This document shows, one piece after another, positions 44,823 through 54,169 of a DNA stretch of 64,000 nt. This DNA comes from Clostridia bacterium (GTDB lineage Bacteria > Bacillota > Clostridia > Christensenellales > UMGS416), in contig JAFGUF010000031.1 in the NCBI GenBank assembly GCA_016938675.1, forward strand, positions 124,001-188,000, given 5' to 3'. How positions within the stretch are numbered: the stretch's first letter is position 1; every line of letters starts with the position of its first letter. A model generated the notes under the pieces. The model was not told where the DNA came from, did no database searches, and was given only the letters and a program-made list of their open reading frames with translations. The position numbers were made by a program, and so were the translations under genes.

Positions 44823-44871
44823 AAATACGGACGCTTTAACTTATATGCCTTAAGTGATTTTTAGTGTCCGC
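44823..44871 (-). terminator. Possible terminator of the GNAT gene
   Basis: CGGAC and GTCCG pair around an inner ACTTA/TAAGT stem and are followed by TATTTTTTTA on the minus strand. The outer stem overlaps the GNAT stop codon. The structure has internal loops, so the call is tentative. Confidence 0.4.
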
Positions 44872-45343
44872 CGCAGCCGCCGCAGCTTTTGCATGCATGG
44901 TTAAGAGGAGAATCCTTTTGGGTCACTTTCATAACGGTTCTTATGTCGCCGGGCTCCATTTCATGAGTTTCTTCACATTCTGTAAAGTTAAGCGTCTTGT
45001 AGAAATTGACGCTTTCTTTTCTCGCGTAGACATAAACTTCGTCAGCAAGCAGCTCAAAAGCTTTGTTTAGGAGCATACGCACCAAAAGGTCGCCAATGCC
45101 TTCGCCGCGCACTTCGGGCAGCACGGCGATGCCGCCGATATAGAAGCTGCCGCCTGTTTCATAGAGCCTGCCGGTAGCGACGAACTTATCGTCCTCGCCA
45201 ATCAAAAGGTGAAAAGCTCTTGCGTCATATTCGTCGAACTGGGCTTCCTCGCTAAGGCCTAGGCCAGTCACGAATACTTGCTTGCGTATATTATAGGCTT
45301 CTGAGAAATCGGACTTGCCGAAAAGCCATTTACTGTATATCAT
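44861..45343 (-). CDS. GNAT family N-acetyltransferase with Cys/Gly-rich tail
   Basis: The 160-residue protein has a GNAT fold, with the acetyl-CoA loop VLPEVRGEGIGDLLVRMLL (~75-93) and preceding strand FYIGGIAV. The substrate is not evident. The C-terminus ends in CKSCGGCGGH, four cysteines and a His in a row, which is not part of the GNAT domain and looks like a metal-binding tail. It has its own promoter and lies between the electron-transfer island and the pyr promoter. Confidence 0.88.
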   Translation of the reverse strand: MIYSKWLFGKSDFSEAYNIRKQVFVTGLGLSEEAQFDEYDARAFHLLIGEDDKFVATGRLYETGGSFYIGGIAVLPEVRGEGIGDLLVRMLLNKAFELLADEVYVYARKESVNFYKTLNFTECEETHEMEPGDIRTVMKVTQKDSPLNHACKSCGGCGGH

Positions 45344-45482: not shown

Positions 45483-46877
45483 CTAGCACCTAAGCAGAAC
45501 TGTGAATGCTGAGCCTTGGCCTTCTGTGCTTTCCACGCTTATTTTTCCCTGATGGCTGAGGGCTATTTCTTTGGCTATGGCAAGCCCTAGCCCGTACCCT
45601 GAAATAGCCTTTGAACGCGATTCATCCTGACGGGTAAATCTCTCAAAAATCCTGTTTACATCCTCCTGCCGAATGCCTATTCCGGTGTCCTGGACTCTGA
45701 GGTGTATATACCTTTTTTTGTCATAAAGAGTTGTATACCCAGCGCTCACATAAATTTTCCCGTTGTCTTTATTGTACTTTACGGCGTTGTCAATTAGTAT
45801 GGATATAACAGAATCAATCAGCTTTTTATCGCCTTGCATACGAAGGCCATCAGATAACTCCACATGGAAATCAATATCCCTGTCGGAACTTAACAGTTTA
45901 TACTTTTTAACATTGCGCTTTATCAGCTCCGAGACATCAATATCTTCTTTGTTTATTACAAGGGTTCCTTCGTCATTCCTTGCTATAAACAGCAGCTTTT
46001 CGACAAGTCCCTTCATCTTCAGGGCCTCTTGGTTGACATCCTCTATTAGTTCGTTTGCCTCTGCGTTATCCTTTTTCACGGCTCTTTTCAAAGCCTCCAT
46101 AGAGAGCATGATGATACTTATAGGTGTCCTTAGCTCGTGGGAGGCATCACCTAAAAATCTTTCCTTTGCTTTGTAAGCTTCATTTATTGGCTTGATCGCT
46201 TTTCCTGCGAAGATATAGCCGATTCCCAATGCTATAAAGGCGCCGACTATCGTCATTATGATCATGATAGTTTTCAGGTTATCGAGGGTGGAGTAGGCGA
46301 AGGTTACATCCTCGAATATTGTGTAATATCCCACTTGCTGTTCATCTACAATAATGGGCCTTTTAAGTGCAATGTATATGCCATAGCCTTTATCTGCAAG
46401 GTCTGTTATAATCGGATGCTGGTCAATCTCAAGTTCACTGCTTATATCATGCAACTGATTATTTAGTTCAGCATCTGGGCTTTTATATCTTAAAAGTTCG
46501 CCGTCATTGGAGTAAATAAAGTAGTAACTGAACGCATTTATTGCATTCGGTATAATCACATCAAATTTATCTGTGATTTTAATTTCATAATCTTCGTAGC
46601 TGCTGGTTTCGTATTCGCTGCTAGCGTGGTCGTCGTCTTCTTCCTCGGAATCATCTTCGTATTCATAGGAGCCGTCTTTTCTTTCGCTCTCTTCGTATAT
46701 TTCTCTAAGCCATTCAGAGCTCTTGATATCGAAGAGGATCTGCTCTATATCAGATTCCAACTTGTTTGTGTTATATGAGTCCAGAACCAAATAAATGGTG
46801 GCATTTAATATGACAAGAATGATTACCAAAACCAGAGTATAGACAAATGTCAATCTTAGCTGAAGCCGTCTGAACAT
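45483..46877 (-). CDS. Sensor histidine kinase with acidic extracytoplasmic loop
   Basis: The 464-residue kinase has helix 1 (~9-30), an outer region (~31-205), helix 2 (~206-228), a very short linker, HisKA with LGDASHELRTPISII (phospho-His) and HATPase with LIDNAVKYNKDNG, VQDTGIGI and SGYGLGLAIAKEI. Within the outer region residues ~65-97 are extremely acidic (EYEDDSEEEDDDHASSEYE), like a metal-cation-sensing loop. Its ATG overlaps the regulator's stop codon (TAATG). Together with the acidic tail of the neighbouring cytochrome protein this suggests sensing of a metal ion at the surface. Confidence 0.92.
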   Translation of the reverse strand: MFRRLQLRLTFVYTLVLVIILVILNATIYLVLDSYNTNKLESDIEQILFDIKSSEWLREIYEESERKDGSYEYEDDSEEEDDDHASSEYETSSYEDYEIKITDKFDVIIPNAINAFSYYFIYSNDGELLRYKSPDAELNNQLHDISSELEIDQHPIITDLADKGYGIYIALKRPIIVDEQQVGYYTIFEDVTFAYSTLDNLKTIMIIMTIVGAFIALGIGYIFAGKAIKPINEAYKAKERFLGDASHELRTPISIIMLSMEALKRAVKKDNAEANELIEDVNQEALKMKGLVEKLLFIARNDEGTLVINKEDIDVSELIKRNVKKYKLLSSDRDIDFHVELSDGLRMQGDKKLIDSVISILIDNAVKYNKDNGKIYVSAGYTTLYDKKRYIHLRVQDTGIGIRQEDVNRIFERFTRQDESRSKAISGYGLGLAIAKEIALSHQGKISVESTEGQGSAFTVLLRC

Positions 46878-47548
46878 TATACGTCCTCCATCTTATAGCC
46901 GATTCCTCTTACATTGACTATCAGCTTTTTGCCGTTCTTTTCTATTTTCTTTCTCAGCAGGCGTATATGCGCGTCAAGATTATTGGATGTCACCTCGCCG
47001 TCCATTCCCCATACACGGTCTATAAGGACATCACGGGGTATTACCTGCCCGGCATTTTCAAAGAGCATGCTGAATATTTGGTATTCTCGCCTAGAAAGAT
47101 TTGCGTCAATGTTATCTATATATACTGTGTTTGTTGCACGATTCAGCGAAATGTTATCTCTTATTACGATATCATTTTTCAATGTGAGTGTGCTGCGCCG
47201 TGCCAGCACCTTAAGCCTAGCGAGAAGTTCGCGGTATTCAAAGGGCTTAATCAAGTAATCATCAGCACCCGATTCAAGGCCCATTACTTTATCATTCAAT
47301 GTGTCTTTGGCAGTCAGCATCAGTATGGCGCCGCTATAGCCTTTTTCTCTTAATTTTACGCAGGTTTCAAGCCCGTCAAGCACAGGCATCATCCAATCAA
47401 GTATTATGACATCATAGACATTGTTTTCGCAATATAGCAATGCCTCTTCGCCGTCATTGGCATGGTCAACCTGATAGCCGTCCTTTACGAGCAGGCCGAT
47501 AATGAGCTTTGCAATTTTCTGATCATCTTCTGCAAGTAATACTATCAT
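46877..47548 (-). CDS. OmpR-family response regulator
   Basis: The start at 47548 (MIVLLAEDDQKI) follows AGGAGGAAAGAA; the longer frame from 47596 crosses a hairpin. The 223-residue protein has a receiver domain (EDD at 7-9, phospho-Asp in VIILDWMMPVLDG, Lys in YLIKPFEY) and a winged-helix domain (LSRREYQIFSML, SNNLDAHIRLLRKKI). It is coupled to the kinase and lies downstream of the double cytochrome gene. The shared 11-base-period repeats before the cytochrome and flavocytochrome genes are its likely sites. Confidence 0.94.
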   Translation of the reverse strand: MIVLLAEDDQKIAKLIIGLLVKDGYQVDHANDGEEALLYCENNVYDVIILDWMMPVLDGLETCVKLREKGYSGAILMLTAKDTLNDKVMGLESGADDYLIKPFEYRELLARLKVLARRSTLTLKNDIVIRDNISLNRATNTVYIDNIDANLSRREYQIFSMLFENAGQVIPRDVLIDRVWGMDGEVTSNNLDAHIRLLRKKIEKNGKKLIVNVRGIGYKMEDV

Positions 47549-47564
47549 TTCTTTCCTCCTGCTT

Positions 47565-47598
47565 AAATGGCAGAAGCGGATAAACGCTTCTGCCATTT
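47565..47598. other. Perfect 14-bp inverted repeat between the cytochrome gene and the regulator gene
   Basis: AAATGGCAGAAGCG (47565-47578) pairs with CGCTTCTGCCATTT (47585-47598) around GATAAA. There is no T run on the minus strand, and the regulator's ribosome site follows at once. It may reduce read-through from the cytochrome gene or protect mRNA; a protein-binding palindrome is also possible. Confidence 0.6.
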
Positions 47599-47635
47599 TA
47601 TTATCTCATGTTATATATCTTTAGTCACTAATTTT

Positions 47636-48583
47636 TTAGTCGTCGTCATCATCGTCGTCATGCTCATATTCGTGCTCGTCCTCGTGTTCATACTCATCGT
47701 CATCATCATCGTCGTCATAGCTGCTATAGCCTTGGCCTGATGCTTGGGACGATAGCGTTACTGGTGATTGAAGCTTGCCGACTACGGGAGCGCCGTTCAG
47801 TATAGAAAGCGAATGGGGGGAGTTTGCAAAAGCTGCTGTCAAATCTCTTCCTGCCTGATAGCCTTGATGAGACCCGTTGCTCCATGCTCCGATATTTGTT
47901 ACGTCATATATAGTTCCGTTTACGGCTATATATGCGGGGTTTCCGTTTCGACCATCGTATTGGGAGAGCATTTCAAGAGTCCAGCCAGACTGGTTGTCGT
48001 TGGTGCCTGTGCCTGTTCCGGAGCTTGTGCCTCCACTGCTGCCGCTAGGAGAGAGGGGCTCTGCTATGTCGGCTGATGCTGCGGATATTGTATCCGGCTG
48101 CAATCCCGGAGTATCTTCGGGTAAGGGTTCTTGTTGATCTTCCGGATTTTCCAGGGTATTATATTGAGCTTCATTATCCAGCTTACCTACCACAGTCATA
48201 TCATTGAGCATAGACTCAAGGTGCGGTGAATTATTGAATTCCTCTGTCAGGTCCATTCCCGCAGTAAGCCCTTGGTGCTCGCCGTTATACCAATCTTCGT
48301 ATTCTGTTACGTCGTATACTATTCCGTTTACCGCGACGTATGCCGGGCGTCCGCTTTTTCCGTCGTAGAGGCTGAGTTCTGCTTCAGTAAATGAAGCGAT
48401 GTCGTTTCCTGCTGCAGCCACACTTGCATTGCTCTGCAATACTTCACTGCGGCTTTCCTCCTGTTTCAAATTAGCATTAGCTGGGAAATATACTGCTAAA
48501 TATGCAACTTCTAATACAAGAACAGAAACAGCTAGGATAACCATCGTGCCTAATACTATTTTTGCTATACTTTTCTTACTCAT
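47636..48583 (-). CDS. Membrane-anchored protein with two cytochrome-b5-like domains and acidic/His tail
   Basis: The start at 48583 (MSKKSIAKIVLG) follows AAAGGATCAAT. About 315 residues: a single signal-anchor helix (~7-30), a cytochrome b5-like haem/steroid-binding domain (~60-130), a Ser/Gly/Thr/Pro linker, and a second copy (~190-258). Each domain has a Y-DG-x-G-x-PAY-AVNG-YDVT motif, a central H-Q-G and an NSPH, the two His that could hold haem. The end is a tail of Asp, Glu, Tyr and His (EYEHEDEHEYEH flanked by runs of Asp), which should bind cations. It lies outside the membrane. With the flavocytochrome next door it probably carries electrons outward. I know no described protein with this exact plan. 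Confidence 0.85.
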   Translation of the reverse strand: MSKKSIAKIVLGTMVILAVSVLVLEVAYLAVYFPANANLKQEESRSEVLQSNASVAAAGNDIASFTEAELSLYDGKSGRPAYVAVNGIVYDVTEYEDWYNGEHQGLTAGMDLTEEFNNSPHLESMLNDMTVVGKLDNEAQYNTLENPEDQQEPLPEDTPGLQPDTISAASADIAEPLSPSGSSGGTSSGTGTGTNDNQSGWTLEMLSQYDGRNGNPAYIAVNGTIYDVTNIGAWSNGSHQGYQAGRDLTAAFANSPHSLSILNGAPVVGKLQSPVTLSSQASGQGYSSYDDDDDDDEYEHEDEHEYEHDDDDDDD

Positions 48584-48648
48584 TATTGATCCTTTCAAAC
48601 ATATTTTAAATACACCTTTGACCTTATGATAAAATACTACATTCAAAT

Positions 48649-48666
48649 ACTGAAAATAAAATGAAA
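48649..48666 (-). promoter_or_regulatory. Direct-repeat box before the double cytochrome gene
   Basis: The minus strand reads TTTCATTTTATTTTCAGT: two heptamers TTTCATT and TTTCAGT with an 11-base period, 66 bases before the start codon. Sixteen of 18 bases match the box at 50077-50094 before the flavocytochrome gene. Confidence 0.6.
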
Positions 48667-48695
48667 AAGTAAAATATCTAATTTTTTTGATTTAA

Positions 48696-50024
48696 TTATA
48701 GAGAGAACCTTTCGTCATGGACTAAAACTTTTGGCACTCTAAGTGATTTTAATATCTTTCCGGCAGATTTCATCAGCGGAGATGGGCCGCAAAGGTAGTA
48801 CCCTGCGGAATACATGGATATGCCGCTTTTGTCTAGCATCCTGCTGAGCATGTATTTATTAAGGTATCCCTTCTCGCCCTGATAGTCGGGCTCATCAGAC
48901 ACTACAGGTATTATTTTGAGGTTGGGTATTGACCTCATAGCCTGGGTTAGCTCATCTACTCGTATAATGTCAGATTTCTTTCTAACGCCCCATACCAGCA
49001 GCACCCGTCTGCTCTCGTGGGTATCTGCCATGTGCTTTATCATGCTTAAGGCCGGAGTCACGCCTACGCCGCCTACAATGAAAACTATCTGTCTTTCGTA
49101 GGGATAATTAAGATAGCTGAATCTGCCATAGGGGCCTTCCATTATGATCTCGTCGCCGGGCTTAATGTTTCCTATTCCTTTGGTGAAATCCCCCAGTTCC
49201 TTAACAGTGATTGACATTTGTCCCTGCTCAGTAGGAGATGAAGAAATTGTAAATGGGTGAAGCTCTCTGCTTTTGTCGCTTGCAAATCTGAAAAATGCAA
49301 ACTGCCCGGGCATGAAATAAAAATCATCATCTATCTCAAAATCAATCCGCCACATGTCGGCAGCTTCCTGCGTTACGCCCGTTATCTTATGGCGGTCTTC
49401 AGAGGCCACCCAGAGCTTAATAACTTTGTGATAGATATAAAAGCTAGAGGCTAAAATAAAGTAGCTCATGTATCCTACAAATACCGGTAGGCTGTTTTCA
49501 ACAGCAGAGGTCATCAATACGTGAATCAGGACCAGCACTAAAGCTGCTGTACTGATATTATGTATCAGCTTAAGTGACCTGTACTTCAATATACCTATGC
49601 GCGTCGTTACAGACTTTATGGGTTTCAGAATTCTTTCTAGGATTGCAGGCGTTGCCATAAGCACAACGGAGAGCGCACTGACTGCAATAAATATTATAAA
49701 AGCTATCTGACCAATGTTTGTAAGGGTGCTTTCTGAGAATACTTTTAGGTTCATATATCTGTGTATGGCGACAAATACTAGTGACACAATGGCCATCACT
49801 CCGTGGACTCTGTAAAGATGGTCCATGCCGAATATTCTTTCAATGAATTTCGGGCGAGCGCTAATAACGAACTGCCAGCTTAGCCATGTGTAGGCGTATA
49901 CGCCAAGCAGCATGGAGGTAAGCCATGTCATATTTGAGTATTTGTTAGGATTTAATGAAATTAGTAATCCTGCCAGTACCAGAGGGCTTAAGAAGTAGAG
50001 TGATATATATAAGAATTTCTTCAT
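48696..50024 (-). CDS. Ferric-reductase-like flavocytochrome (b-type haem membrane domain + FAD/NAD(P) oxidoreductase)
   Basis: The 442-residue protein has about six N-terminal helices with paired His for two b haems: HGVMAIVSLVFVAIH in one helix and HNISTAALVLVLIH in another. The C-terminal half (~215-442) is a ferredoxin-NADP reductase module with FAD-binding HPFTISSSP, GPYGRFS, NAD(P)-binding VGGVGVTPALSMIKH and YLCGPSPLM. It can move electrons from cytoplasmic NAD(P)H across the membrane to an outer acceptor, as in ferric reductases and NOX-like enzymes. The next gene encodes an exported haem protein, a likely acceptor. Iron(III), another metal or oxygen species are possible final acceptors. 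Confidence 0.9.
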   Translation of the reverse strand: MKKFLYISLYFLSPLVLAGLLISLNPNKYSNMTWLTSMLLGVYAYTWLSWQFVISARPKFIERIFGMDHLYRVHGVMAIVSLVFVAIHRYMNLKVFSESTLTNIGQIAFIIFIAVSALSVVLMATPAILERILKPIKSVTTRIGILKYRSLKLIHNISTAALVLVLIHVLMTSAVENSLPVFVGYMSYFILASSFYIYHKVIKLWVASEDRHKITGVTQEAADMWRIDFEIDDDFYFMPGQFAFFRFASDKSRELHPFTISSSPTEQGQMSITVKELGDFTKGIGNIKPGDEIIMEGPYGRFSYLNYPYERQIVFIVGGVGVTPALSMIKHMADTHESRRVLLVWGVRKKSDIIRVDELTQAMRSIPNLKIIPVVSDEPDYQGEKGYLNKYMLSRMLDKSGISMYSAGYYLCGPSPLMKSAGKILKSLRVPKVLVHDERFSL

Positions 50025-50076
50025 TTAGTCTGCTCCTGATTATGATAATTAGTTTTACTAAAGGATACAGAGCGAA

Positions 50077-50094
50077 AATGAAAATAGAATGAAA
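50077..50094 (-). promoter_or_regulatory. Direct-repeat box before the flavocytochrome gene
   Basis: The minus strand reads TTTCATTCTATTTTCATT, two exact TTTCATT heptamers with an 11-base period, 53 bases before the start codon. TATCCT lies about 9 bases further down as a possible -10. The near-identical box before the cytochrome gene points to one regulator of the OmpR type. Confidence 0.65.
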
Positions 50095-50321: not shown

Positions 50322-52037
50322 ATGATTTATAAGAAATTTCACATATCAAATTATAAAGCAATCGAGAAAATTGATATAAATATTAACCGTGAAATTGTTC
50401 CCTTAATCGGAATAAATGAATCCGGAAAAACTACAATTTTGCAAGCTATTCTGGCATTTGATAAAAACAAAGACAATCTTTTAAATAAAAGGCATATTGA
50501 TGCAAAAAATATATATGAGCATGAAGAAAAGGAATGCGTTATATCTGCAGAATTAGAATTTAAAAATAAAGAAGAATTCGAGGATTTTGGTAAATCGATT
50601 AGCATCAATATGGATATGCCTCTTTACGATTGGATAAAGGATAAATTTGAAAATCATGAACCAATAACATTAAAAAGAGACTTTGCTAATGGAATTTTAA
50701 CAAAAGAATATTCTCTTGTAGAAAAGTTTGATGAATTCGGTTCGGAACACATGAAAAAGAAGTTTATCTCAGAAATAGTAAAAAGACTTCCTAATATTCT
50801 TTATTTTGATGATTTTAGCGATAGAGTTCCAGAAGCTATTAAGTTTCCACAGAACTATGTAAACGACCAAAAGCTATCAACAGGAAAAGAACGAGAATGG
50901 CAAGAAATATTAGTTGAAGTTTTTGGAAGAGCAATTGATGCGGAATTATCGCTTGTTAAATTTATGAAACTAGACAATGATGACAAAAGAGAGGATTATC
51001 TTTCGGATGTGAATGATAAGCTGAATGAGGAAATTATCACTGACTGGGAGCATTTAAAGAAGCTTTATGAAGGCTTTGATGATGGCGAAGACAAATCTCA
51101 AAACATTGAATTAGCATTAAAGTATGATAATCATGAAAAAACTTTCCAATTCAAAATCAAAGACAGAGAAACAGAACGGAGCAGAACATTTGATATTTTA
51201 GAGAGAAGCAAGGGATTTCAGTGGTTTTTTAATTTTAATATGAAGTTGAAATATAATAGTAAGTATAGCCATCATCCAGACGATGCAATTTACTTACTTG
51301 ACGAGCCAGGATCATATTTGCATTCTGCCGCACAAACTGGTCTATTGAAGAAACTAAAAGAAATAAGCAGTAGAAATACAATTATTTTTTGCACACACTC
51401 TCAATATTTGTTAGAACCTTCTGAGATTAATATTGGTAGTGTAAAAATTGTATCAAAAAATGAAGGCACTATTGATTTAACCGATTTTGGAAGCTCATCT
51501 GTTCAAAAAAGCTTGGGTGCATATACTCCCATAGTACATGCTTTGCACTTAAAATATGGTTTCAATACAAAATTCAAAAAATGTTTGCTAACAGAAGGTA
51601 TTTATGATTACTATTTTTTTAGCATGTTTTTTAATTTGAGAAATATTGATATTATACCTGGACAGGGTGCGAGTCATTTAAAAGATTTGATATCAATATT
51701 AATTTCGTTTTCCGATAAATTTTTAGTAATATTAGATAATGACGAAGAAGGACAAAAAGCAAAGGCGAATTATAGTAAGTATTTCAAGCGAATCTTTGAC
51801 CAAAACAGTTATATTTATGACATTAAACAAGGAGATTTTGTATTAGAAGATATATTGTCAGGATCAGATTGCGAGAAAATAATTAAAAATACCGGATGTA
51901 AAGATGTAAAAAGTGCGTTGCCTATTTTGTTTTTCGATTCTACTGATAATGCTAAATTAATTAAGAAGGAATTCAGTGAAGAAACCAAAGACAATATAAC
52001 TAAAATCGAGGGAATAATCAAAAGCCATTTTAATTAA
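50322..52037 (+). CDS. OLD-family AAA ATPase with C-terminal TOPRIM-like nuclease domain
   Basis: The 571-residue protein begins with an ABC/SMC-type ATPase: IDININREIVPLIGINESGKTT (Walker A GINESGKT near 32) and, after a coiled-coil-rich insert, Walker B AIYLLDEPGSYLHSAAQ followed by FCTHSQYLL (switch His). Residues ~420-500 have LLTEGIYDYYFF and VILDNDEEGQKAK, the Glu and DxD pattern of a TOPRIM domain. This is the OLD plan of class I type, seen in phage-defence and DNA-repair nucleases. No gajB, reverse transcriptase or phage gene flanks it. The gene is far more AT-rich than its neighbours, which suggests transfer. It may be an orphan defence gene. Confidence 0.85.
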   Translation: MIYKKFHISNYKAIEKIDININREIVPLIGINESGKTTILQAILAFDKNKDNLLNKRHIDAKNIYEHEEKECVISAELEFKNKEEFEDFGKSISINMDMPLYDWIKDKFENHEPITLKRDFANGILTKEYSLVEKFDEFGSEHMKKKFISEIVKRLPNILYFDDFSDRVPEAIKFPQNYVNDQKLSTGKEREWQEILVEVFGRAIDAELSLVKFMKLDNDDKREDYLSDVNDKLNEEIITDWEHLKKLYEGFDDGEDKSQNIELALKYDNHEKTFQFKIKDRETERSRTFDILERSKGFQWFFNFNMKLKYNSKYSHHPDDAIYLLDEPGSYLHSAAQTGLLKKLKEISSRNTIIFCTHSQYLLEPSEINIGSVKIVSKNEGTIDLTDFGSSSVQKSLGAYTPIVHALHLKYGFNTKFKKCLLTEGIYDYYFFSMFFNLRNIDIIPGQGASHLKDLISILISFSDKFLVILDNDEEGQKAKANYSKYFKRIFDQNSYIYDIKQGDFVLEDILSGSDCEKIIKNTGCKDVKSALPILFFDSTDNAKLIKKEFSEETKDNITKIEGIIKSHFN

Positions 52038-52108: not shown

Positions 52109-54169
52109 CTAGCTTCCAGCCATAAACGCCTCATACGATGACAGCTCAAAATAATACTCCTGACCAAGAATAACTGCACATAGCACATCTTCATTATCGA
52201 CAGTCTTAAATGTTATCCGGGCTTTCAGGCTGCCTGTACCGAAATTATATATGACAGTATCGTCCGTTATTTCATAATCCGATGTCTGAAGAGATACCGC
52301 ATAATCCATATAAGTAGTCATCATATCCTCGGTAAATTCTATGGCGTTGCCTTCGGCCTTTACCTCATCGCTTAATGCACCATCAGAACCAATCATCACC
52401 CAAAAGCCAATTGCGACCTGCGAAAGGTCGGCGTTTTTCATGTATTCTTCATATGTGGTCTTCACGAAATGGTAATCCGTTGCGTTGTATGTATATGTCA
52501 TAACATCAACGCCCTCAACGGTTTCGAATTTTATTTGCGCGGTGTACTGAGTGCCATCTGCTCCTTTATAGGATATCGTCCGGCCGTCTATAAAGCTGTA
52601 CTCCACATTCTTGCTGCCCAAGTGATAATTGCTGTATGATGTAAATTTGTTTTCAGTAAATTTATATGCAAAGCCCAGGTTTTTGCTGTCCTCGCTTATT
52701 TCGCCGCCGCTGCCCACCATATACCAAAAGCCCTGCATTTGCTCCTTAGTTTGGGTTATGTACTGCGTCTGATATGCCAGGAACTCTTCATAAGTCACCT
52801 TGATAAAATGGTACTCGGTAGAATAGACAGTGTATGTCATTACGTCAATTCCATCTATCTGCTCGAAAGATATATCAACACTAACAATATCTCCGGTTGA
52901 TGTAGTATATTCAAATGTATCTTCATCAATAAATGCAAATTCCGTATCAAAATTGGTCATTATATAATTATTGTAGGTGTCAAATTCGTTATCCGTGAAT
53001 TCATAAGCAAACCCCAGAGCTTTCTGATCTTCTGTTATCTGTCCTTCTTTACCGACCAGATACCATAGCCCTTGCAGACCTCCCAATGTGTCCGCGCTTA
53101 ATGTCTGGGCGGTCTCCAGCCTGTAGTCTTCCAATGTGGTTTTTTCAAAATGCATTACCGCATCGTCATACTGAAGGGTCATTACGTCAACTCCGTCAAT
53201 CGTCTCGAAAATGATATTCGCTGTCGTCAGTTTGTTTCCGAAGTCATGCTCTATTGTGTCCGCATCAACAAAATCATAAAGCACTCCAAGGGTTGTTGAC
53301 TGCCCGTCTATATAGACGTCAAAATGATAATCCGAGAAATTATAGGCAAGGTCTCTGTATTCATCCCCCAGCTTCCCTCCTGAGCCTACTCTTTGCCAGA
53401 AGCCCTTCATTTTGTTCCATGTTTCATTTATCTGTTTGAAGCTGTCAAGCTCGCTATTTTTAATATGACTAAAATGCTGCGGAGGGTATCCTTCTGCAAG
53501 CATCGTCATCACTTGCGTCCCAGCAATTTCTTCAAATGCTATTTCATATGGCTCGGTAGTGCCTGCCTCGCTCTTTGTGACTATCGTATTATCATCCATA
53601 AAAAATACATAGGTTTCTGAAAGCTCGGAAATGAAATTTTCATAGTACATATATGAATTATCATCTATAGAGTAATACATCCCGCTTCTGTTGAGATATG
53701 AAAATAATTGACCGTCCTGTCCACTGTACATCCAGTTGCCTTGCAGCTTTTCTTTAAGTTCTGTGCTGTCTTGATCGAATTTTACTGTTACTTCAACTAC
53801 TGTGTCATAGTATTTTTTTTCTTTGCCCTCTGCTTCTTCTGCCCTTATTTCAAAATCATAGCAGCTTCCTATTCCTTCGGCGGAGTATTCATGCCTGCCT
53901 TCGTCCTGACTGCTGCATATAAGCTGCAGGCTTTGCATAAGGGCGCCGTAGAATTCAGAGACGTCCTCTATATCATCATCTGTACCATAAAATAGAGTTA
54001 TTTTATTATTTTCTTCCGCTGTTTCAAAAACTATAGCATCATCATATATCTCCAGCTCATCAGGGTAGTCAGCGGGAACATCTATGCCGTTTTTATATCT
54101 GCCCTGGCATCCGGCGGCAAGTAAGGCGAGACTTACTAGTATAGCTGCTGCAAAAATAGCCTTCTTCAT
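52109..54169 (-). CDS. Lipoprotein with five tandem ~110-residue repeats
   Basis: The 686-residue protein has lipobox LAAGC (C21), a non-repeated N-terminal part (~22-140), then five imperfect repeats starting near residues 142, 255, 365, 478 and 588. Each repeat runs G-F/L-W-x-x-V/I-G-S-G-G, a loop, A-x-x-F-T-x-x-x-F-x-T-Y, V/E-Y-x-F-I-D-x-x-T-I, F-E-x-I-D/E-G-V-D-V-M-T and Y-H-F-x-K-x-T-Y-E-E-Y, consistent with small beta-barrel or lipocalin-like units. The repeats differ at many positions, so they are old. I do not recognise the family. It is a surface-exposed protein with its own promoter, near a sigma/ABC operon. Confidence 0.8.
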   Translation of the reverse strand: MKKAIFAAAILVSLALLAAGCQGRYKNGIDVPADYPDELEIYDDAIVFETAEENNKITLFYGTDDDIEDVSEFYGALMQSLQLICSSQDEGRHEYSAEGIGSCYDFEIRAEEAEGKEKKYYDTVVEVTVKFDQDSTELKEKLQGNWMYSGQDGQLFSYLNRSGMYYSIDDNSYMYYENFISELSETYVFFMDDNTIVTKSEAGTTEPYEIAFEEIAGTQVMTMLAEGYPPQHFSHIKNSELDSFKQINETWNKMKGFWQRVGSGGKLGDEYRDLAYNFSDYHFDVYIDGQSTTLGVLYDFVDADTIEHDFGNKLTTANIIFETIDGVDVMTLQYDDAVMHFEKTTLEDYRLETAQTLSADTLGGLQGLWYLVGKEGQITEDQKALGFAYEFTDNEFDTYNNYIMTNFDTEFAFIDEDTFEYTTSTGDIVSVDISFEQIDGIDVMTYTVYSTEYHFIKVTYEEFLAYQTQYITQTKEQMQGFWYMVGSGGEISEDSKNLGFAYKFTENKFTSYSNYHLGSKNVEYSFIDGRTISYKGADGTQYTAQIKFETVEGVDVMTYTYNATDYHFVKTTYEEYMKNADLSQVAIGFWVMIGSDGALSDEVKAEGNAIEFTEDMMTTYMDYAVSLQTSDYEITDDTVIYNFGTGSLKARITFKTVDNEDVLCAVILGQEYYFELSSYEAFMAGS

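Follow-up and report, generated by a model that had tools for sequence, protein, structure and literature searches.

What do a transmembrane flavocytochrome, an exported protein with two cytochrome b5 domains and a two-component system do side by side in a clostridial genome? The question is raised by a 64,000-nucleotide stretch of DNA (the window; contig JAFGUF010000031.1 of the Clostridia bacterium assembly GCA_016938675.1, positions 124,001 to 188,000), in which four genes, all on the minus strand and spanning 45483-50024, encode in transcriptional order a flavocytochrome (FC), a cytochrome b5 protein (b5), a response regulator (RR) and a histidine kinase (HK). A preliminary description, made from the letters alone, had read this as a surface electron-transfer and metal-sensing island, and the four same-strand genes with the domains, His pairs and acidic segments that it claimed are confirmed from gene calls, Pfam and alignments. 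The gene set, folds, haem ligands, conserved order, paired acidic segments and shared promoter architecture were all computed. By an order kept in five other genomes and a shared predicted operator, the four genes are a conserved, linked unit, and a candidate cassette for self-regulated electron export.

The same four genes in the same order are present in Fusibacter bizertensis, with identities to the window proteins of 42% (FC), 62% (RR) and 39% (HK). Scanning genome contigs with a single protein found no close FC relative; an alignment-based scan was needed to find such cassettes, and the one made with aligned FC sequences yielded 80 named loci. An FC orthologue is present in 5 of 41 genomes of the F. 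bizertensis family, and the FC-b5-RR-HK order is complete in all five, such that six cassettes can be compared (the window, F. bizertensis and the other four family genomes), with protein identities of 35-64% across genomes. In a quick tree the window FC and the four intact family FCs form one clade (SH-aLRT 97; the split FC of genome G1026, at locus L206, was omitted). No further cassettes were found in the sampled 247 genomes of Fusibacter's order, and among the matches listed for 248 genomes of the window's order there is no full-length FC relative, only matches to the dehydrogenase part. A plasmid search for FC relatives gave only 26%-identical ones, in lactic acid bacteria. In other phyla most FC homologues have no b5 or two-component genes beside them (some loci in metagenome-assembled genomes end close to FC, so that absence is not always informative), and the gene link is therefore specific to one FC clade. 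The preliminary description had looked to a neighbourhood conserved across Clostridia; the order is kept in five other genomes but is not widespread, being known only from Fusibacter's family and the window genome. [Clostridium] fimetarium has an FC homologue with a divergent b5 lipoprotein gene ~225 bp away (L119:7389-9320), a possible second and separate FC-b5 pairing without a two-component system; the other genomes in a draw of 150 from that family do not share this FC.

FC passes the Pfam cut-offs for PF00175, PF08022 and PF00970, and has a weak match to the ferric-reductase transmembrane family PF01794 (18.3 bits, below the cut-off of 28). The PDB entry nearest to it in full-length sequence is SpNOX, the pneumococcal NADPH oxidase (8qt6, E 8.5e-19), which is also the top Foldseek match (E 4e-24, TM-score 0.82 to the target) of an AlphaFold2 model with a mean pLDDT of 89.5, although identity in the structural alignment is 22%. 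Bacterial NADPH oxidases (NOX) have been defined by two His-X12/14-His haem motifs at least 20 residues apart in the transmembrane domain (Hajjar et al. 2017, PMC5676040), and FC contains two bis-His pairs with such spacing, both invariant in 27 homologues. The FAD- and NAD(P)H-binding motifs HPFTIS, GGVGVTP and CGP are conserved, and together with the fold these features correspond to the NOX definition. FC thus shares with SpNOX the fold, the FAD and NAD(P)H modules and the two bis-His pairs, and differs in sitting fixed beside a b5 carrier and a two-component system. The modelled fold supports the assignment of FC as a transmembrane electron-transfer enzyme; the label 'ferric-reductase-like' given to it earlier does not hold as well, as FC is by sequence and model nearer the NOX branch than the classical ferric-reductase branch.

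The b5 protein has two PF00173 stretches (E 9e-19), and its AlphaFold2 model includes two domains with pLDDT of ~95 and a transmembrane helix at residues 3-32, with the linker and tail at low confidence. The best Foldseek matches are 6VZ6 and 6NZX (TM-scores to target of 0.90-0.91), which belong to the structure group named cytb5M; matches to classical b5 (rat or bovine, ~0.66) and PGRMC1 (0.55) are poorer. In cytb5M the haem plane is rotated relative to classical b5. Like 6NZX of Hadesarchaea and 6VZ6 of Methanococcoides burtonii, to which they are 45-50% identical, the cassette domains have a short haem loop and both His ligands, and differ in being membrane-anchored, in tandem arrays of one to four domains and followed by an acidic tail. 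A review describes 6NZX as a haem-containing b-type cytochrome (PMC7096707). The axial His pair is complete in all 16 cassette b5 domains, and in an alignment of 40 b5 domains the first His is present in every one and the second in every one in either of two adjacent columns, with the hydrogenase-type group offset by one. Whereas cytb5MY and the eukaryotic MAPR proteins use tyrosinate haem ligation, every aligned domain has His at both ligand positions. These data support haem-competent b5 domains, as the preliminary description supposed; domains unable to hold haem, the outcome that would speak against it, were not encountered in the models, which were built without haem. The number of domains is one in F. 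bizertensis, two in the window and G1026, three in G1048, and four in G1036 and G1037, which suggests selection on reach or electron capacity rather than a fixed stoichiometry.

The exported protein had been described as ending in a run of Asp, Glu, Tyr and His behind its two b5 domains, and Pfam, AlphaFold2 and the tail composition bear this out. Such a tail is present in all six cassettes and in none of 21 other b5 proteins, with length and composition highly variable between cassettes. The kinase was likewise said to carry an acidic stretch like that of the tail in its outer loop, and it does, at residues 60-97 and in 6/6 cassettes. The outer domain of the window HK contains 43 Asp or Glu in 171 residues, clustered in this stretch, and peaks at 16 per 30 residues compared with 5-8 in six other kinases with two transmembrane helices measured in the same genome, none of which has a comparable stretch. 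An acidic proteome is therefore rejected as the cause, as the other kinases measured are not acidic. In each cassette the insert lies between a juxtamembrane helix and the conserved outer domain and is variable in length and sequence. Because all six cassettes carry both tail and insert, against 0/21 for other b5 tails, the pair is not a chance occurrence. Fe3+ and Al3+ both elicit a response from the kinase PmrB, whose mild-acid sensing requires periplasmic Glu residues (PMC1804205); by analogy it provides a precedent for an Fe3+-responsive kinase in whose outer domain acidic residues have a function.

RR and HK are otherwise typical OmpR and HisKA proteins by Pfam; RppA/RppB and CzcR/CopR-type assignments are among the best NCBIfam models for the pair yet fall below cut-off. 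RR is the most conserved of the proteins compared (55-64% identity to its cassette orthologues), with a nearly invariant NNLDA-I-LLRKKI region. Its probable target is an 11-bp direct repeat, TTTCAN6TTTCA, located before FC in all six cassettes and before b5 in five; none was found upstream of RR across the six. In the sixth cassette only 9 bp separate FC from b5, and a single promoter could serve both. The 64-kb window contains two copies (0.3 expected) and each relative's 12-18 kb locus also contains two (0.03-0.23 expected), both at promoters in four loci and one at a promoter in L208; the frequency in shuffled sequence is at most 0.0125 per region. Each of the 11 promoter sites has a -10-like TAnnnT that starts exactly 28 bases from the start of the repeat; pairwise identity is 0.67 over the stretch from operator to -10, and only 0.32 on its upstream side and 0.39 on its downstream side. 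PhoB/OmpR-type activation is known for promoters in which an 11-bp direct repeat takes the place of the -35 (compare the pho box), and the layout of repeat, fixed distance to the -10 and replaced -35 is found at 11/11 sites. The repeat and its spacing at the two promoters make it very probable that RR is the activator of FC and b5. Its predicted regulon apparently holds little beyond these genes: other sites in the six genomes matching the stricter pattern TTTCANNNTATTTTCA are mostly chance-like, and no convincing further member was found.

The features of the cassette are listed in Table 1. The HK gene and the RR stop overlap by one base. Two starts were reset relative to the mechanical open reading frames, that of b5 to the ATG at 48583, because the predicted -10 (48639-48634) falls downstream of the TTG at 48646, and that of RR to the ATG at 47548, because the orthologues begin there too.

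Table 1. Genes and predicted features of the cassette; positions are those of the window.
Feature	Position	Strand	Remarks
FC, NOX-type transmembrane flavocytochrome, 442 aa	48696..50024	-	Predicted haem-binding transmembrane bundle and FAD/NAD(P)H domain; Pfam, PDB, AlphaFold2, Foldseek
First bis-His pair of FC, H74...H88	49761..49805	-	H-X13-H
Second bis-His pair of FC, H155...H168	49521..49562	-	H-X12-H
b5, exported double cytochrome b5 (cytb5M-type) protein, N-terminal transmembrane anchor, acidic tail, 315 aa	47636..48583	-	PF00173 x2, AlphaFold2, Foldseek
b5 domain 1	48176..48400	-	Both haem His present (GEH, SPH)
b5 domain 2	47765..47989	-	Both haem His present (GSH, SPH)
Acidic D/E/H(Y) C-terminal tail of b5	47639..47716	-	DDDDDDDEYEHEDEHEYEHDDDDDDD; D/E/H are 24/26 residues
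RR, OmpR/PhoB-type response regulator, 223 aa	46877..47548	-	PF00072 and PF00486
HK, HisKA histidine kinase, two transmembrane helices, H-box His247	45483..46877	-	PF00512 and PF02518
Acidic stretch of HK (aa 60-97), outer domain, beside first transmembrane helix	46587..46700	-	Same position in six cassette kinases
Predicted operator 1, upstream of FC	50079..50094	-	TTTCATTCTATTTTCA
Predicted -10 box of FC promoter, TATCCT	50062..50067	-	TAnnnT at operator +28
Predicted operator 2, upstream of b5	48651..48666	-	TTTCATTTTATTTTCA
Predicted -10 box of b5 promoter, TAGTAT	48634..48639	-	TAnnnT at operator +28

The reading that we favour, and which as a whole we consider somewhat probable, is that the cassette exports electrons and regulates itself. 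By what is known of the flavocytochrome family, electrons would pass from cytosolic NAD(P)H to FAD and through the two membrane haems of FC to the outer face. There FC would hand them to a membrane-anchored array of one to four b-type haem domains, acting as a carrier or short wire spanning the cell-wall zone; this transfer is suggested by context, the b5 haems being placed outside, and the direction of flow and the binding of RR to the operator are putative. The flexible polyanionic tail would keep cations or an oxidised mineral surface close to the last haem, with Fe(III) or another hard cation as the likeliest terminal acceptor or ligand. A kinase with a matching polyanionic outer stretch would sense the same kind of ligand and signal through the OmpR-type regulator, so activating FC and b5 from promoters whose 11-bp direct repeats overlap the -35. 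What the tail binds is the weakest step, and that a metal is both acceptor and signal is put forward as possible and somewhat short of probable.

Several observations weigh against this electron-export reading. Genes for a metal transporter, a known terminal reductase or a c-type cytochrome are absent from the cassette, and SpNOX, the nearest solved relative of FC, reduces O2 and iron only indirectly (PMC5676040). The tail of one orthologue, with 41 Asp, 1 Glu and no His, makes a specific site for a metal improbable; to judge from composition, a polyanion in which His is rare or absent is better suited to hard cations or mineral surfaces than to forming a specific Cu or Zn site. In G1026 FC is split by in-frame stops (L206:9921-11291) while b5, RR and HK are open. 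The functions of the members are predicted throughout.

The resemblance to SpNOX, a superoxide-producing NADPH oxidase reported to be no true ferric reductase (PMC5676040), raises the alternative that FC reduces O2, with the b5 haems as an auto-oxidising sink or a surface superoxide oxidase and the two-component system sensing redox or envelope stress. O2 is established as the acceptor for SpNOX but not for FC; the organisms that carry the cassette are presumably anaerobes and could benefit from removing O2. We think this unlikely, as it leaves the matched tail and kinase insert of all six cassettes unexplained, and Pfam identifies no known superoxide- or peroxide-detoxifying enzyme among the four genes. 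Improbable to much the same degree is assimilatory metal reduction or cation homeostasis, in which FC and b5 would reduce tail-bound Fe(III) or Cu(II) for uptake under an Fe(III)-sensing, PmrB-like kinase. The PmrB precedent favours it, as does the occurrence of iron transporters in some MsrQ-like flavocytochrome clusters (PMC8238504), whereas none of the six cassettes contains a transporter gene and the predicted operator regulon, as described above, gained no other convincing member in six genomes. Less likely again is that b5 feeds a separate surface enzyme, as eukaryotic cytochrome b5 supplies desaturases and P450s and as might be expected of a fold that serves partner enzymes in the single-domain relatives directly preceding [NiFe]-hydrogenase subunits in this class, with the strongly varying tail a mere electrostatic docking arm or slippage-prone low-complexity end, given that the six cassettes have no gene for a partner enzyme conserved alongside them and drift alone would not retain tail and insert jointly in every one.

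Single-domain cytb5M proteins of the class adjoin [NiFe]-hydrogenase subunit and maturation genes at several loci (L098, L099, L100, L103-L106, L108, L112 and L115), and their position suggests a b5-type electron partner for those hydrogenases. At L101:4796-6118 a b5 domain and a [NiFe]-hydrogenase small subunit are present in one 440-aa open frame, apparently a gene fusion. This context, that of most single-domain b5 proteins of the class, is rejected for the window genes, which lie outside such operons. Two further b5 proteins illustrate the range of the family: the window's own genome contains a single-domain lipoprotein without an acidic tail (L094:8811-9176; G000:C26), and at L114:4416-5138 a b5 domain is joined to a multi-helix membrane segment in a protein of 240 aa. 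No paper on tandem b5 proteins or on b5 with hydrogenase was found in the open-access literature.

The gene set had been presented as one not known to be described, which requires qualification. One account (PMC10093951) mentions a reconstructed operon from the Candidate Phyla Radiation (CPR) in which cytb5MY, of tyrosinate type, occurs with TSPO, a putative ferric reductase, a two-component element and two other cytochrome b5 proteins, and which thus, like the cassette, unites b5 proteins and a two-component system with an enzyme of the ferric-reductase-like kind. The cassette is nevertheless a different variant. It has His/His ligation rather than tyrosinate, its b5 domains are fused in tandem within one protein, and there is no TSPO among its four genes or the flanking genes scanned with Pfam; acidic tails and an operator (predicted in the cassette) receive no mention in the passage on the CPR operon. 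No b5 gene was seen beside CPR relatives of FC at the loci fetched. A second comparison is provided by MsrQ-like flavinylation-associated clusters, for which multi-cofactor carriers have been proposed to give longer reach (Meheust et al. 2021, PMC8238504). As is proposed for the cassette, a flavocytochrome with an NAD-binding domain feeds an extracytosolic redox carrier, but the carrier has ApbE-attached FMN in place of b-type haem, and the PF01794 membrane protein that is a feature of these clusters is matched by FC only below cut-off. Neither an ApbE nor an FMN-binding gene was found in the four genes and their immediate flanks (by Pfam) or in the relatives' cassette genes. The individual parts belong to known families.

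The genes flanking the cassette are of other types. Just downstream (44861-45343) is a GNAT acetyltransferase gene whose product has the C-terminus HACKSCGGCGGH, a possible metal-binding tail. Divergent from FC is a gene for an OLD-family type protein (AAA_15 plus TOPRIM-like; 50322-52037), possibly of defence or repair function, and beyond it (52109-54169) one for a predicted lipoprotein of 686 aa with repeated units of ~90 residues each and no Pfam or NCBIfam match.

In the known routes of electron export the carriers are multihaem c-type cytochromes or proteins with covalently attached flavin (FMN). We propose tentatively, and with a little more reserve than we attach to the role of a metal, that the cassette represents a new class of extracellular electron conduit with non-covalent b haems in tandem cytb5M arrays, a NOX-type feed, a metal- or mineral-binding polyanion end and a dedicated sensor with a like polyanion in its outer domain. 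Through the shared operator and the pair of acidic segments, regulation and signal can both be tested directly. If the proposal is correct, a four-gene unit with repeated b5 domains would be a third solution to electron export, dispensing with c-type maturation and flavin-attachment machinery, and NOX-like enzymes of anaerobes, in which an O2-reducing role makes little sense, would gain a partner and a testable job.

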